64,000 bases of DNA from Pseudofabraea citricarpa (lineage: Eukaryota > Ascomycota > Leotiomycetes > Helotiales > Dermateaceae): positions 62,001 to 126,000 of the forward strand of contig JAPWGK010000019.1 of assembly GCA_029641185.1 (NCBI GenBank). Reading direction: 5' to 3'. The notes beneath the pieces are model-generated. The model was given only the letters and a program-made list of their open reading frames with translations. It was not told where the DNA came from and made no database searches. Position 1 is the stretch's first letter; each line of letters opens with the position of its first letter. The translations under genes were made by a program, and so were the position numbers. This document shows positions 5,211 to 17,125 of the stretch, piece after piece.

Positions 5211-6029
5211 ATGGCGGCTGAGGTTCTACAATTCCACAAGACAAAAGACTACGACCTCCCTCCCGATGCGATCCAACTTGGGAGTCTTCTCGAAGCCCCT
5301 CAGTATCCAGACGAGATTCTAAACAAAGGAGAAATTATATATATCTCACCAGCACCGACTCCCGTGGTGCTAACAAATTGGAGGCAGACAAATACAAATG
5401 TCAAGCAAGGAAGAGTCGGCTTCTGGGCTCGATTTACACACATCATCAATGTTGGTCCTGAAATGAGTGTTACTAGAGACGAAAAGTACAGTTACGATTA
5501 TTCCTTTGATCGCCTTGTGACGACATCATTCTATCCTGACAAGGCATATCTCGATCAATCTTTACAACAACCGCGGATCAGGAGTTATTTGACTGGGGCT
5601 AAATACTCTCCTATATACATGGTTACAGGAGTTAAGGTGGTTCGTGGAGCTAACTCTACAGTGAAGACAAATATATCCAAGGCTCAGAGAGGTGAAGCAA
5701 AAATTGGGGTTACTGCTACCATCTTTAGTCTACCAGTCAACATCGGCCCAGAGGCTCAAGGATCAACGGATAAATCAGAAGAAGTATCGTTCGGAGGGCC
5801 ATCTAACATTGAAAACTCGAACGAGTTTGTGATCGCATATCGTCTTTCCAAGATCACTTTTCGAAAAGTGGGGGATTACTGGGAATACCGAAGTCAGAAG
5901 CACATTGATGGAAATGGAGGAACGATGATGAGCGGCGAGAGAATGCGGGAACAAGTTGAGGAAGCTGTACTAGTCCACAAAGATGAGGTTGCATCGAACC
6001 TTGAGCAGGAATGGGAGCGCTCAGATTGA
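5211..6029 (+). CDS. Gasdermin-like pore-forming protein (HET-Q1/RCD-1 type)
   Basis: Intronless, 272 residues, ATG at 5211 in a good context. Fungal gasdermins of about this length (HET-Q1 of Podospora, RCD-1 of Neurospora) form membrane pores and cause regulated cell death. HET-Q1 is activated when a subtilisin-like partner removes its short C-terminal tail. What is seen: no signal peptide, a beta-rich body, a strand-like PIYMVTGVKVVRGA segment (about residues 137-150) followed by alternating Gly/Val hairpins, then VIAYRLSKITFRK (about 207-219). This layout resembles the strand pair around VVTEV... and LAFRV.QL in animal gasdermin N-domains. After about residue 230 comes a Gly/Met loop (HIDGNGGTMM, 231-240) and an acidic amphipathic helix to the end, matching the autoinhibitory tail of HET-Q1. 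The next gene downstream on the same strand, 442 bases away, encodes a subtilase, the usual neighbour of this family. The family call is by fold-level pattern and context, not by a search. An unrelated beta-rich fungal protein is the alternative. Confidence 0.7.
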   Translation: MAAEVLQFHKTKDYDLPPDAIQLGSLLEAPQYPDEILNKGEIIYISPAPTPVVLTNWRQTNTNVKQGRVGFWARFTHIINVGPEMSVTRDEKYSYDYSFDRLVTTSFYPDKAYLDQSLQQPRIRSYLTGAKYSPIYMVTGVKVVRGANSTVKTNISKAQRGEAKIGVTATIFSLPVNIGPEAQGSTDKSEEVSFGGPSNIENSNEFVIAYRLSKITFRKVGDYWEYRSQKHIDGNGGTMMSGERMREQVEEAVLVHKDEVASNLEQEWERSD

Positions 6030-6471
6030 CGCGTGAGACCAGAGAAAAATAGTGAGGATGAATGAGCTATGAAAACATGAAGTCTTGAAAACATTTTGAC
6101 TCTAGTGGTTTGCCTATTTAACTTTTTCAAAATTATTGCTTCGTTTCCAAATCATGAGTAGTACTAGTTGTCACACCAATACTTGTCTACTATTCACTAT
6201 GGCTCTGCGCTTTCTGGTCGCATGATTCTCCTGCCCGGACTTGTCTTTTTAGCATGAGTCTGTTTAGAGATTGTCAAATTCATTATTATGTTCATAATAA
6301 GGTTAAGGCAGTTCCGGCCGCAATCTTGGTCTAGGTGTTCCCTTACGGCATCGTTGTTCGCCGCATTCCAAGGCTCTGCTCAGCTATGCTGTTCGCAGCG
6401 ATCACAGGCCAATATTCTGGAGGAGAATTGACACCACTATAATCCATCCCTCACGCGTATGAGCTTCATTT
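6030..6471. other. Spacer between gasdermin-like gene and subtilase gene
   Basis: 442 bases between two genes on the same strand. It contains the 3' end of the first gene and presumably the promoter of the second. No further gene is visible. Confidence 0.5.
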
Positions 6472-8326
6472 ATGAACAGCTGTCTTTCATCATCTGAAAT
6501 GTATACTTACATCAAAACCACTGCCCTTGAGGCTACTCTTCCTGTTGATACCAAAATTCTAGATTGGTGCGCATCTATTGAGAAAGCGTCAAAAACACAA
6601 CATTCAAGCAATCGCAGCGCCAGCCTTGACGAGCGGACACGGGACGGCTGGGAAACAGAAACATCAAACTTCGGGTCGGAACCAATGTCACCAGGAGTAT
6701 GCTTGTCTCGTGGCTCTCCAAGCGATCTTGGGAACGTTGATTATAATGCAACCCCGAGATCTTCAATTGTAAGATATATATGCCTGCGATCCACTTACAC
6801 TAGATATTTTGTATGGCGTATTATATTCACATGTTTCAAAGAAAGGGACCTCCGTGGACATCCAAGTGTATTCGCATACAATCAAGAAAAGAATTTCGTA
6901 CTCAGCTGTCCGCGCCACCACCGAGGAAAACAAAAACTGCATCTCTTTATCCCTAGTTAAAGAACTCGGTCTCAAGATTCACTCAAAACCTGCTCCAGCG
7001 CATGGTAATTTTGATAGCAACTCGGTCACAGATGAAGGTGTAGTCAAACTGGCATGGAGCTTTCAAAACAACTGTACAAAGAATACCGACTGTCAAGTTA
7101 TACGTGGTTTCACAGAAGAGGGCTGCGAGATAAAGCTTGATGAGGCTTTTTTCCCAGAGCCGCCCCCTTCGCCTCCAGAAACCGCGTTTTCGGAGCCCAA
7201 AATCCCAGTACCTCCGCCTGAGACCCAACGAATAATTTCAAGGGATGGTGGATTCTTTGATGACTGCAGTGGCACATTTGATGATAGCGGACACAAGTAA
7301 GTTTCCCAGGAGGATTTTAATGATTTCGGTGGAAATTCATGTTTAATGAAATCCAGAGCCACATCAGCCGATACGTATATTAAGGATTTCAAAGCACAAG
7401 TACATCAGAGGATTCAAAGCAACAAACCCCATCCTATTAGGCCGGTAAAAATTGCTATCCTAGACACAGGGGTTGATGATAAGAATATGCTCATCAAAGG
7501 ATTAAAGAGCCGACGTTTCATATTGGAAGAGAAAGGGTTCGTTGGAGACGATGAGAGCACACAAGATACACATGGCCATGGGACTCACATTACAGCACTT
7601 CTCTCCCAAATAGCACCCGAAGCACAAGTTATAATAGCTAAAATATCCTCTGGGCAAGAAATTCCACCGGAAAATCGAATAAGAGATGTATACCATATCC
7701 CATCAGTACAAAACCCCACACTCGCTAACTAGATGACTTTCAAGGCAATAAAATGGGCCATAAAAGAAAAGGTCAATATAATCAGCATGTCTTTCGGATT
7801 TAAAGAGTCCCAGCCTTTGATTAAGAAAGCTATCAAGCAGGCCTCCGACAACTCAATTTTGATGTTTGCAGCTGCCTCCAATGAAGGAAAAGGTTGGAAA
7901 CCGACATTCCCAGCCAACGACGAAAACGTTTTCTGCATATACGCCTCAGACGGTAAAGGAAATCGAGGAAAGATGAATGCGCGTTCACTCGAGAGACAAG
8001 AATGCTTTGCCACACTTGGTGTTGCTGTCAAATCTGCATGGCCAGACCCACGGGGCATTGGAGAAGCGCGAAAGTCGGGAACATCCTATGCGTGCCCCAT
8101 CGCAGCAGGCATTGCAGCATGCATCCTCGAGTTTGCAGCTCTAAACCATATGTCGTACCATGTACTTGACGCGTTGAAATCAAAAGAAGGCATGCAAAAG
8201 GTGTTTCGTAAGATGGCAACAAAGGGAGATGATCTGGATTTCCTGTGTCCTTGGGAACTCTTTAACAATTTCTTTCGTGACTCGACCGCCGTGGATTTGA
8301 TTAGTATGTGGCTAAATATTAGTTGA
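6472..8326 (+). CDS. Subtilisin-like (S8) serine protease with retropepsin-like N-domain; HET-Q2-type partner
   Basis: Four exons: 6472-6768, 6842-7296, 7357-7687 and 7733-8326, total 1677 nt, 558 residues. Introns start GTAAGA, GTAAGT and GTATAC and end AAG, CAG and TAG. Residues 1-99 are unrecognised. Residues about 100-215 look like the retropepsin-like domain common in fungal proteins, with the usual IS..LV.ELGL block (NCISLSLVKELGLKI) but no DTG/DSG, so that domain is probably not catalytic. A Pro-rich linker follows. The S8 domain is complete: Asp287 in AILDTGVD, His325 in HGHGTH, oxyanion Asn411 in AAASNEGKG and Ser479 in SGTSYACP. There is no signal peptide, so it is probably cytosolic, as expected for an intracellular activator. 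It sits directly downstream of the gasdermin-like gene, on the same strand. The inferred role is proteolytic release of the gasdermin tail. The S8 assignment is firm; the substrate is inference. Confidence 0.92.
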
Positions 8327-9036
8327 CTTGCCATAAGAAATGACATGGGAGAATAAGCGGGACGTAGCTTTTATGTATCAAGCTATTAAGATAAATTTCA
8401 ATCTCTGATGATCCCAATAAATCGTTCTTTGCCTAAAACTGGAGCTCTTAGTATCAATAATTGGAAATTATTTTTCCAAAATCTCTTTGAAGGTTTATTT
8501 TAGAATAACTCGTTTGAGTGACCAATAGTCTTAAATTTAGCAATGAAGGAGAATATTAAAGTAAGATATCGAAGGTTGAACTCTCCTTATGCAAACTAGA
8601 AGGCATATTTCATAAAATTGTGGATAGCTTTAGACAAAGTACTGACGGTTGAAGTTCTGTCAACTCAGAGAACAACTTGCCTCTTGCGAAGATCGTTGAA
8701 ATGGTTTGGGTTAAGCAACGAAAACCATTCAACCAACGAAGCGACCTACTCCTCAAATATTTTCAAATTATTCAAAACATTTTTGAATAAACGTGCAAAT
8801 AGATGAAGACTAGTTAGTTATGCTAACTTTTAATGGTATTGCCTAAATTAATTTCCTAACACGCTAATATGTCTTAGTGGCCATTCGGTCCCAAGAAAAA
8901 TAAAACTCTGGATCCACTCATCAATCGTATTATTAAAATCGAGTACCAGATTGGGAAAATCTCAGATATATTCTTTACTCTCCTTTCAAAACAGGACCTC
9001 GAGAGTTAATTGCCTGCTGAAACAGATTGGATCGAC
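8327..9036. other. Intergenic, AT-rich
   Basis: About 700 bases, AT-rich, with short frames only (a 62-codon frame near 8618-8806 uses a non-ATG start and has no family resemblance). No supported gene. Confidence 0.5.
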
Positions 9037-10059
9037 ATGACTAACGACGAGCATCTCGAGATGCTTGGGCAATTCGAACGAAAGAAAGCGAAAGAATTAG
9101 AAACGAGGACAATCGAGACCTACAATTCAACCAGCCAGCTGTGTGCAGACTTGTGCCGCTCGATTAATGAACTACTCTTTCCCTCTGTGAACTGTCCAGA
9201 TCATACATCTCCCCCTGGCGAGGTAAGAGTTGAGATCGAATCAAGGCACTCAATGGGGCACTTGTTTTGGTGTCCAATAGCTGGTGTGTGGTATAGCACA
9301 AATAATTGCAAGCCTACATATGTCTTTGAATGGAGACACGGGCAGGAATTCATAGGAGCAATCTTTGGACACGAAGCAAAAGATGAGATGTTCTCTGCCC
9401 TCAATCGACTGTCACTGTGCCCAGCTGCGGCGGAGAGATTTCGGCGCGGACACCTGACCTTGGTTCCAGATATAAACAGGGACCAATCCAATTTGGAGGA
9501 ATGGGAAACGATAACTCCTCGGCCATATCGTATCAAGGTTATCAACCCATTCGGCCCGGGGATGCAAGATAAAATTCAAGCTGGCGAGAACGACATCACA
9601 TGGAACCAACTCAACGGCAAACCTGTTGATTTCAAAAGCCCCTACCGACCACGAGCTCGTTACCTTTACTTCCATTACTGTCTTTCGGTCCTCCGTCTCT
9701 CCTGGATGTTTGCCGGATACAACTGGGACTGCACAAAAGATCTGCTCAAGGCAACTTGCTGGAGGACAAAAGGGACGTACATGAAGCCAGCTATGCTTAG
9801 AGCATTTATGGATGAGCTTGGAGAGGAGGCAGAGGATATTCTTGAAGTGCAAATTGAACGTCACCATGAGCCGCCTACAAGCGACGGGGCGGCGGAAGCC
9901 TTGCTTGGCCAGATTATGATGGATATGGTTCAAAATTCCTGGCCTGAGGAAAGAGAATCACGGAACCATTCTGAGAACTTCTTTCCCATTGAAGTATATA
10001 TGAACGCGGTTAAGGCCGTCGAAGAAAACCCCGAGAAGTTGAGAGAACTCAACAGCTAG
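9037..10059 (+). CDS. Degenerate HNH-type fungal protein
   Basis: Single exon, 340 residues from the first ATG (MTNDEHLEML). The open frame extends upstream only through non-ATG codons. The layout is that of the fungal HNH_2-containing proteins: a helical N-terminal part, a central block WCPIAG...IFG...LSLC (about residues 84-135), a basic IKV strand region, the DGK/HRP-like segment GKPVDFKSPYRPRARYL followed by YFHYCLSVLRLSW (about 197-228), and a distal GTYMKPAMLRAFMDELG block. In typical members the central block has AHI and HE.FD histidines. Here the first is replaced by Thr-Tyr (KPTYVFEW) and the second by AERF, so nuclease chemistry is doubtful. There is no signal peptide. It lies between the subtilase and the sugar-kinase-like gene in the accessory island. 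The family call is from memory of the pattern; function unknown. Confidence 0.6.
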   Translation: MTNDEHLEMLGQFERKKAKELETRTIETYNSTSQLCADLCRSINELLFPSVNCPDHTSPPGEVRVEIESRHSMGHLFWCPIAGVWYSTNNCKPTYVFEWRHGQEFIGAIFGHEAKDEMFSALNRLSLCPAAAERFRRGHLTLVPDINRDQSNLEEWETITPRPYRIKVINPFGPGMQDKIQAGENDITWNQLNGKPVDFKSPYRPRARYLYFHYCLSVLRLSWMFAGYNWDCTKDLLKATCWRTKGTYMKPAMLRAFMDELGEEAEDILEVQIERHHEPPTSDGAAEALLGQIMMDMVQNSWPEERESRNHSENFFPIEVYMNAVKAVEENPEKLRELNS

Positions 10060-12258: not shown

Positions 12259-15200
12259 TTATGAATCGTTTAGTATAGCTTTATGCCCCACTCCTCGTCT
12301 TATAACAGCAACCTCAGCTTTGGCAACAAATATTAGATCTCCCTTTCCAGTGAGTTGAAAAATGAATCGATGACTTCTATCGATCCATTCGTCTGGGATA
12401 AACATATGCCTGGTAAAATCATTTCCATCTCCAGAAAGCATTAATGAGCAAACCCAGAGATCTTTATTAAGGAAGAACAACGTTGAACGGTTGTATCCAA
12501 TGACATGGTCAATTTGCGCAGTCGTATTATCAAAACGGCCAAGGACAGATACTTCCTTACTGTCTGTTCGACAGCTGGAAGTATCGAGTAAGCAGAAATG
12601 TGTTGTCGAAATTTTTCTGTGAAACCTTGATAACTTCAAGACTAACATTTTGCCATCAGCCGAGGTATCAACGTCTTGAATAGTGAGCTTTCCATCTAAA
12701 TCACATTTTAGCTTTATTCCATCAGCGACTGAGACTTCTTCCAAGGTTTTCCAATTGTAGAATTTCAAAAAACTGGGCTCGATGGAGATAAGCTGGTCGG
12801 AGTTTGTTGGATCATTTACCCATCTACCAATAGAATTCGCGTGGAGAGACCGCATAACCTTATCACCTTGAAGTTGAAATACAACTATTTTTTCTGTTGT
12901 AAGTACCAGAAGATACGATCCTTCAATATTAAATAAGATCTGCTTGACAGGGCTCGTCAAGTGCGTGGTGAACACGTCCGAAGCAATCTCCCATTCCTTG
13001 CGATGTTGTAATTGCTTCACAAGCACACTATTTGACCCGTCCACGCTCGCAAGGAAGCCTCGTTTTGTGTTCCAGACCATATCAGATACCCAATACCTCG
13101 ATGTATGTCGGTACATATTTTTGAGCTTTTTGCCTGTTGTGGTACTGTGTAGCACGACTAAGCCATCGTGCATTCCGCAAAGAACAGCATCCCCATTGGC
13201 AAGGCAAGCAATTGCTGTTATTTCGACGCGAACTTCCTGTGATGGTGAGTTAAAATCTTCTACCACCATGGCAATAGCATCAGACATGCTATCTGTACTC
13301 TGTGGCTCAGATAGCATTAGTAACGGTGGTGCCCAGACATTGCACTGGGATTCGCGAATATCGATCAGCCTTTGACCGTCGCTGCTAAAAGCCATGGCTC
13401 TTAAATTGAGATCGGAAGTATAAATTATCCTGTGGAGTAATCTTAAAGTTTGGAACTCATAGAGCATGATTATTCCCGCGCTACTGCCCACTGCTAAAAT
13501 GCGGCCATCAGGACTGCTAGCAAGTATTGCAGCTTCTGAATCTTCAACAATTGCAACAAGTGTCTGTTGATCTGGATTGAAGATGGCTAAAGTCCCATCA
13601 ATATATGTGACAGCTAATAGGCCAATATCAGGGTTCGGATTGAATTTCATCGCAGTGATTGCTTCAACTGGCTGTTCCATATTTAAAGAGTCGTCAGAAG
13701 TGATATCTTTCTCGCAAAATCCGATATATTCGTCATTATCCAAGTCCGTCAGAGTTACTGGTTGTCCCCTATGGATTGTGGCAAGCATATTCAGGGCTAG
13801 AGAGAAGCTAGCAGAAGTAATATCACCTCCTCGGAACAACGAAACTGCACCACGGAGATGGTTTTTCCTGAGCTTAGTGCTCACAGATTCTCCATCTGCT
13901 GTGCGCCTAATCAAAATATTATTACTTCTCGTAATTGCCATAAGGTTTTGATCTTGGTCAGCGAAAGAAAGATCAAGTGGCTCCCCCGGTGTATTTCGAA
14001 GCCATATTTGATTTCCATCAGCAACATTCCATAACCGGAGTTTCCTGAGTCCACCACATGCTAAGAGGTCTCCAGTGAGATTGTACCGTAATATTTTAAC
14101 AGACTCTTCGTGTTGTAGGACTCGCAATTCTTGGAACGTGATGTAGTCGTAGATGTAGACAGCTCCGCTATGGAGCCCGACGGCAAAGCTAGAGTCCCCA
14201 TACGCAATTGCCGTTGCTGTTTCCCCATTGAAATAAATACTGCAAAGACGGTCATCCCATACACGGCGGGACAGTCCCATGACTTTTATGCCCTTGAGGT
14301 CTGTATGCTGACAGGCTATAGCACTCTCGGGTGGTGATAGAGGAGGTATCAAACTAAAGATCGAAGAAGGGCATCGTAATAAGTTTTTGCCAAACTTCGC
14401 TACCAATCGAATTAAATCAACAGACCACTTTTGGATCACTTGTGTTTTCTGATCCAAAAGGGGTCTGTACTTTGCTCTTGCTTGGAGATACCCATGCAAA
14501 TTTTGCGAGGCTCGAACTAGAGCACCAAGTTCACCTCTGTAGGCAATATGCTCGATCCAACTGAAAGAGTTTGTTGTTAGAAATGCATGTAGTTGGTCAA
14601 CAGATTCCGTGTCATCAGAATGGATCCTTCGTACATGATCGCTGAAGAATATACATGCATATTCTGCGAATGGGCAGTCTGTTATTCGCCGTTCTATACG
14701 GACGACTGAACGCCCAGATAATCCTTGTGTCCGTTTAGGTCTCATGTGACTACTCCGTAAGAACTTTAGACAAGCCGAGCCCAGCTGGAGATTCGCATCT
14801 GCCAAATCCACTCTAAATTCAGATGCAAGATCTGGACTAAGAAGAAAGTCTCGAACCGTTTTGTGAATCAAGCACACTCGTTTCATCTTGTCAACATAAA
14901 TAAGATTGCCACAAGAAGATTTGATAGTGTGCTCAAAAATTGTTATATTGAACTCAATTCTGAGCGCATCTGCAAGTTCCAAAACAGTGAGTGGGCGAAA
15001 AGCACATGCCACAAAATTTAAAATCGCTTTTGAAACTTGCTTTCTGTCGTCACCGTCAATTTCTGGCTTCGAGAGAGATTTAAGTGTTCGCTCATATAGC
15101 TGATACATGCTCGGTGGCACCTCCTCTAGGGTCTGTTCAACCTTTTCAGCACTGTAAGCATGATTTGCTAACTCGTCCATGACAAGATCGGTCCAGAGAA

Positions 15201-17125
15201 AAGATCCTTCTGATTTTTGGGTAATTCTTTCAACGAGGTCTCCTTGAGCTCCATCAAAAAGATGCCTCAGAGCTTTGGATTTCGGTCCTTTTTCCACAAA
15301 TTGTCTGATGCTATCGTATGTGTCGTCGAACGAAATCTGCTGTTCTTGGATACGGTCACTGAGGAGTGAAAGTTGAGCCTGTATCTGAATGGAAGGGCGG
15401 CTGGTTAGTAAGATGCGCAAAGCGAAGCTAGGCTCAACCTTAGCCAGCATAGGAAGAAGGGTACTATAGTCCTTGCATTCGTCCAAAGCATCTATCACCC
15501 AGTACTGAGGTTGCTCAAAGGTACATCTGAAGATACCGGAGATAAATAATTTGCGCCATATTAGTTTATCGTTGTCTTTTTCCAAATTCACTCCATTCTC
15601 CTTCATAGTGAGAATCTTCTCTCGAACATTGGAGCTCAGAAGTGCCATTTGGTATGCAAGCGAACGAAGCATGCCGCTTATTGTAGACTTTGTGCGGTCT
15701 TCAGAAGAAAAATAGTAGTAGCTACAGTCCAGATTTACACTTTCAAGGTGGTTGATAACTTGGCTTGTCAATACCGATTTTCCTGTTCCCGGCATCCCAG
15801 AAAGCCATATCACTCTGAAAAGGTCGGATTCTTTTAGACTAAGAGAGACTGCCTGTTCTCTTAGAGCGCCATCTCTCCACTCATGGAACGTCGGTTTGGA
15901 GGTATACCACGAGCACGATTTCGGCATACATAAATCCTCAAGTTCTATAAGGTCACCATCTGGCATTTCGTGAACTCCCAGATAGTCTCGCAATGCATGG
16001 AGTTGATTCAGGTGAGAAGCATGTCGCTGAACAGATACTATGAACGATTATTAGTTGCAATCAAATCAAAGTGCGTGTGCTTTCTTACCGTCTCTTAGAA
16101 TTGATTCCACAGTGTGGCCAAGCGCGCTGCGCAGAGTAATAAAATCGCGATCTGTTGGTTTCTCAAATTTGCATAACCCCCGATGATTTTTATTCAGGGG
16201 CATTCTTTGCTCGTTTACGTAGCCTAAAGTTGCAGATTGCTGATTGACAATCATTCGGGATGATCCTGCCCACGTTTCTAGGGTTTCATAGAAAGAGAAT
16301 AGCTTCAAATCCTGCGAGTAGCGCGGAAAGTCACTGTTGATTAACTGAATCATTGCTGACGTCGGATTGAGATCTTGAAGGTAAGGCTTTTCCCCGTGGA
16401 AAGGTGAAATGCTGATGAGAGTTTGAGCCAATTTTGAGCTCTCAGAACCTCGGTGTGGTGTTCCCAGAAAGTAAAGACTATGTATACGTCTTCCTAGTTG
16501 CTCATAATTTGGGTTGACACGTGCTTCAATGTATGCCTAATCGCAATTTAATTAGCTTAGGCAATACTTATTGAAAGATTGGACGTTAACAATACTTTCT
16601 TAGCAACTAAGCCACCCATGCTGTGTGCGATAAGAACAATCCGACTTGCCACAGATGATCTAATTGAAGGCGAGTTATTCAAAGCACCTAACAAGGACTC
16701 AGCAATATCATGCACATTGAGAATACTGCCTTTAGTATCATTCCACCTCGATTTGTAACCAAAAGTATGCACGCGGACATTCTGAAAAGCAGGGTCTTTC
16801 GATAACCACTCTTGTGGCCAAAAATGATGGAGCTTCGTGCTAAAACTCCAGGTCTTTCGGGAGCCTCCACCAAGACCATGTATAAATATAAATTCGAGAA
16901 GCGGTTCGGAGGGGGAATGGATTGTGGTCAGGCCTAGGGGTCCCCAGGTGTCTTCCTCTTCAAAAGGAAGTTGATCGTACAATTGCAATCCAGATAACAC
17001 CTTCTCTAACGAAGCAAAGTCGAATTTTGTGTTCTTCTTCCGACGTCGACCGAACTACAACAAATAAAGCATCAGTCGCAATTCACGATGAGCCGGTACT
17101 TTGTGGAACTCACAGGTATATCCAT
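12259..17125 (-). CDS. NLR/STAND protein: alpha/beta-hydrolase (SesB-like) - NACHT - WD40
   Basis: Four exons on the minus strand: 17125-17114 (only MDIP), 17054-16596, 16536-16089 and 16037-12259; total 4698 nt, 1565 residues. Introns of 59, 59 and 51 nt are all GT-AG. Domain order: a basic N-tail, an alpha/beta-hydrolase with oxyanion motif HGLGGG (63-68), nucleophile elbow HSMGG with Ser about 148 and FLGTPHRGS about 185 (SesB-like effector domain), then a NACHT NTPase with Walker A GMPGTGKS (387-394) and Walker B WVIDALDEC (about 486-494), the HKTVRDFLL motif (about 698) of the winged-helix part, and a long C-terminal region of degenerate WD40 blades (about 880-1530). Fungal NLRs of this design sense non-self or damage and activate the N-terminal effector on oligomerisation. 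Several are heterokaryon-incompatibility genes. The WD repeats are divergent rather than near-identical, so it is not a rapidly homogenising het-d/e-type repeat. Both the nucleotide-binding and the hydrolase residues are intact. It shares an island with the gasdermin/subtilase pair. Confidence 0.95.

Follow-up and report, generated by a model that had tools for sequence, protein, structure and literature searches.

Do a gasdermin gene and the protease gene directly behind it form a single cell-death system? The question is raised by a 64,000-nucleotide stretch of the fungus Pseudofabraea citricarpa (contig JAPWGK010000019.1, positions 62,001 to 126,000), referred to below as the window and corresponding to C11:62001-126000 in the examined genome of 43,985,132 bases and 43 contigs. 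On the forward strand of the window, a gasdermin gene (5211..6029) and a gene encoding an S8 subtilase (6472..8326) lie in same-strand tandem, separated by 442 bp. A sequence-only reading had proposed exactly this order, a 272-residue gasdermin-like protein followed by a complete S8 protease, and had assigned the pair to the het-Q1/het-Q2 type as probable. The identification of the locus as a gasdermin-subtilase pair, for which there is precedent, is well supported, and the two genes very probably constitute a cell-death module, in which a cytosolic subtilase of the Q2-L kind would both sense the trigger and activate the gasdermin. This reading is based on the gasdermin fold, the intact catalytic residues, the tandem layout, the linkage at the other two gasdermins of the genome, and the mutual similarity of the proteases.

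The gasdermin gene is a single intronless open reading frame of 272 codons, running from an ATG at 5211 to a stop codon at 6027-6029. In profile searches, its product matches both RCD-1 of Neurospora crassa and HET-Q1 of Podospora anserina across the pore-forming domain, which places it by homology among the fungal gasdermins (fGSDM). The likeness to these two proteins extends to a comparable length, 272 residues against 278 in HET-Q1 (PMC10989679; the articles cited here are represented by parts of their text), and to a short C-terminal tail. The predicted model shows the gasdermin N-domain fold at moderate confidence (predicted local distance difference test, pLDDT, 69.5), its residues 5-241 aligning with RCD-1-1 at 17% identity over 208 structurally aligned residues. 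The sequence-only reading had staked its gasdermin identification on this fold, and the RCD-1 match came out in its favour. The predicted pore-forming N-terminal domain, as delimited by the structural alignment and pairwise identity, covers residues 1-240 (5211..5930, + strand). The bacterial gasdermin 7n51 gave a weak profile match (E 3.9e-4), the nearest relatives in both sequence and fold being fungal. Judged by hydropathy alone, neither the gasdermin nor the protease has a strongly hydrophobic N-terminus (Kyte-Doolittle values averaged over 19 residues peak at 0.89 and 0.71 within the first 60 residues), in agreement with the apparent lack of signal peptides proposed earlier. The 272-residue gasdermin would presumably form membrane pores and thereby cause cell death.

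The tail consists of 32-40 residues, comprising a variable acidic linker and a conserved end, W268..S271-D272. When the window gasdermin was compared with its six closest homologues (n = 7), mean pairwise identity was 0.59 for residues 1-232, 0.29 for residues 233-266, and 0.73 for the last six. W268, S271, and D272 are invariant in all seven sequences, as are M240 and E243 within the variable stretch, and 43 members of a 44-sequence alignment carry L, F, M, or Y in the M240 column. HET-Q1 is reported to be cleaved at F238 with the loss of about 40 residues (PMC10989679; PMC12881547); M240 may be the counterpart of F238 and the cut may fall near or after it. Residues 241-272 (5931..6026, + strand; net charge -6) are predicted, from conservation among homologues, to form a removable tail that could inhibit the gasdermin. 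Given the moderate model confidence and the low pLDDT of residues 242-266, both the position of the cut and inhibition by the tail are inferences.

The protease gene was modelled with four exons (6472-6768, 6842-7296, 7357-7687, and a final one ending at 8326), which together give a single open frame with one terminal stop. Two starts of the last exon are compatible with this frame. A start at 7733, after a 45-nucleotide intron ending at 7732, yields 558 residues with D287, H325, N411, and S479, while a start at 7745, after a 57-nucleotide intron with its acceptor at 7744, yields 554 residues with D287, H325, N407, and S475. Sequence considerations lead us to prefer the 554-residue form, since four residues absent from the aligned homologue P0081 of Hyaloscypha hepaticicola then drop out and a CTAAC branch-like motif comes to lie at a normal distance upstream of the acceptor. 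The homologue search, Pfam scan, P0081 alignment, and genome protease search all used the 558-residue form. In that form, a Pfam Peptidase_S8 match spans residues 281-505 (E 6.8e-25; 7445..8164, + strand, in coordinates of the 554-residue model) and the full S8 catalytic set is intact, as is characteristic of a Q2-L protease domain. A complete protease, as had been claimed, is supported, while the catalytic positions originally given (Asp287, His325, Asn411, and Ser479) apply to the 558-residue form only.

Uncertainty attaches to the first intron (6769-6841, with AAG as acceptor): when single introns of 40-159 nucleotides are tried at this place, an open frame results from 39 GT/AG pairs, the chosen one included. 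The 38 alternatives, for an intron known from sequence alone, and a strict scan (YAG acceptor plus CTRAY branch motif) that returned no introns are what could be cited for a degraded or silent module, in which one gene or both have lost function, as may occur in birth-and-death families. Yet neither frame is interrupted before its end, and the catalytic residues as well as the conserved C-terminus of the gasdermin are preserved, making such decay very unlikely.

The region ahead of the S8 domain spans 280 residues (6472..7444, + strand, in the 554-residue model) and is a candidate sensor or regulatory region. The homologue search scored the 7999 candidates sharing most words and found 283 homologues, of which 120 were listed. 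Among these best 120 of 283, P0081 covers 97% of the protease and the next best 64%; the N-terminal 251 residues and P0081 share 26% identity (E 9e-7 in a single comparison). Homologues in Trichoderma, Fusarium, Xylaria, Hyaloscypha, and further Ascomycota, together with the introns, point to a filamentous ascomycete. It could tentatively be speculated, if with considerable doubt, that the N-terminal region of the protease forms a sensor module, so far undescribed, through which gasdermin is activated. Residues 99-211 are, on our own assumption, reminiscent of a degenerate retropepsin-type fold without the catalytic aspartate, and PDB sequence searches gave no support for this resemblance; if it were true, a dead protease would guard a live one. 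As a separate observation, the fungal protein P0083 (548 residues, PAC_01091) bears two S8 stretches on one chain.

Whether the two genes belong together can be judged from the remaining gasdermins of the genome. Four gasdermin queries returned the same three genes, namely that of the window and those at C39:712.1-712.9 kb and C9:403.9-404.6 kb, and all three have an S8 gene within 10 kb, the distance used for Q2-L clustering. At C39, a DUF7580-S8 protease gene precedes the gasdermin gene (286 residues) by 757 bp on the same strand, whereas the C9 gasdermin (293 residues) has S8 frames within 4080 bp on its strand, with an AAA ATPase gene intervening on the other. Along the coding strand, the gasdermin comes first in the window and on C9, and the protease first on C39. 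In the C39 cluster (L012, 3514-7969, - strand), DUF7580 precedes the S8 domain; in the C9 cluster (L013, 1731-8653), no Pfam match was obtained to the long N-terminal part of the S8 frame. It might be argued that gasdermin and subtilase are both genuine but adjacent by chance, the protease serving another intracellular role, given that S8 genes are not rare (at least 34 domain matches, grouped by hand into at least 23 loci). However, such a gene is near every one of the three detected gasdermins, and the other two proteases are the best matches of the window protease elsewhere in the genome (C39 91.2 bits and C9 65.5, followed by C43 45.4 and C34 26.0), so that chance adjacency appears extremely unlikely. 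Two of the S8 loci, C12:34357-35481 (-) and C12:82415-83539 (+) (L004 and L005), lie 48 kb apart in opposite orientation with identical scores and look like an inverted duplication; in both, the match is interrupted by stops, which may mark introns.

Several points weigh against the two-gene cell-death module. The RCD-1-1 match is moderate (template modelling score 0.57 by query length, 4.9 Å, Foldseek), pLDDT falls below 50 across residues 242-266, and the HET-Q1 structure 9uv9 is absent among the best 50 Foldseek matches listed. F238 of HET-Q1 could not be aligned because the solved chain has 232 residues, and the conservation of M240 may be structural in origin. Nor is the acidic tail general, the last 32 residues being negative in 11 of the 12 members scored and +6 in P0022. 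No recognised sensor domain was found, the 280 residues ahead of the S8 domain lacking a Pfam match. As for linkage, the S8 counts are lower bounds, and the chance of about 1e-6 for three of three gasdermin genes having an S8 gene within 10 kb applies under uniform placement, a rough null because immune genes may cluster. Among homologues, the longest contig of the source is 280,683 for both gasdermin P0003 and protease P0080, and 33,056 for both P0078 and P0194, equal lengths being an indirect sign of adjacency. Together with the paralogous loci, these pairs nevertheless bring the linkage check put forward with the sequence-only reading out in its favour.

Comparison with known systems places the locus further. 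About 1900 fungal gasdermins have been described in 400 genomes, around 80% clustering with protease genes and around 63% with the S8 type (PMC10197012). Like HET-Q2 and Q2-L proteases, the window protease is encoded next to a gasdermin gene and has an S8 domain with a complete catalytic set, but it exceeds the 388 residues of HET-Q2 (PMC10989679) by about 170 and has no Pfam domain besides S8. The absence of an annotated extra domain is not unusual, since Q2L proteases are often multidomain and an architecture is annotated for only about one-third of some 1500 (PMC10197012). A genuine allorecognition locus of the het-Q type would require that the alleles of strains differ and that fusion joins an active protease with the cleavable gasdermin of the other strain. 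The protein families are the same two, the gasdermins are similar in size, and such families are often the source of recruited allorecognition genes (PMC10197012). However, het-Q1 and het-Q2 are idiomorphs, i.e., different genes at one locus (PMC12881547), while the window carries both genes in cis, on a single contig, where a protease active at all times would kill its own cell unless the gasdermin allele withstood cleavage, and at 554-558 residues the protease is much longer than HET-Q2. Such a locus is therefore unlikely, and of the het-Q1/het-Q2 assignment the gasdermin, the S8 protease, and their linkage are supported, while the allorecognition label goes too far.

The layout of the module instead resembles the commoner sensor-protease/gasdermin cluster. 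RCD-1 acts through two paired alleles without cleavage (PMC12881547), whereas the adjoining protease in the window suggests cleavage. The CHAT-TPR protease/gasdermin cluster of P. anserina, in which a sensor protease and a gasdermin also lie side by side (PMC12881547), offers the best functional model by analogy, although its protease is caspase-like and that of the window a subtilase. Bacterial gasdermin-protease defence loci likewise place the two genes together (PMC12881547; PMC10197012), but the window genes are eukaryotic, with introns in the protease gene and the closest relatives in fungi. In the proposed module, the short acidic C-terminal tail would keep the gasdermin inactive until the N-terminal region of the protease responds to a signal, such as foreign cytoplasm upon hyphal fusion or an invader, be it viral, bacterial, or other, and frees the S8 activity. 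The protease would then cleave the gasdermin near M240, and the freed domain of about 240 residues would oligomerise in the plasma membrane, killing the hyphal compartment.

With this locus, the pyroptosis-like systems of fungi would gain a further S8-gasdermin module; the sensor targets of such proteases are a major open question according to a 2025 review (PMC12881547). The genome permits a comparison of three gasdermins and their three neighbouring proteases, and a different N-terminal domain, DUF7580, is present in at least one of the other two (C39). In addition, the hydrophobic M240 position and the conserved W..SD end offer direct handles on cleavage and inhibition.

About 3.9 kb beyond the pair, an NLR-type gene (12259-17054, - strand, three frames) encodes a PGAP1-like alpha/beta hydrolase, an NPHP3_N/NACHT-like NTPase with winged helix, and WD40 repeats, and could possibly form a small immune-gene cluster with the pair. 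Between this gene and the protease lie a fructosamine-kinase gene and, adjoining the protease, a 349-codon frame (9010-10059, + strand) whose HNH_2 match is weak and below threshold (E 0.032). At 17-64 kb of the window, 8 of the 13 frames of at least 200 codons were scanned against Pfam; one had no match and one a sub-threshold GGL match, and matches were obtained to FAD oxidase, aldo/keto reductase, WSC, eIF3a, LRR, and DUF7730.
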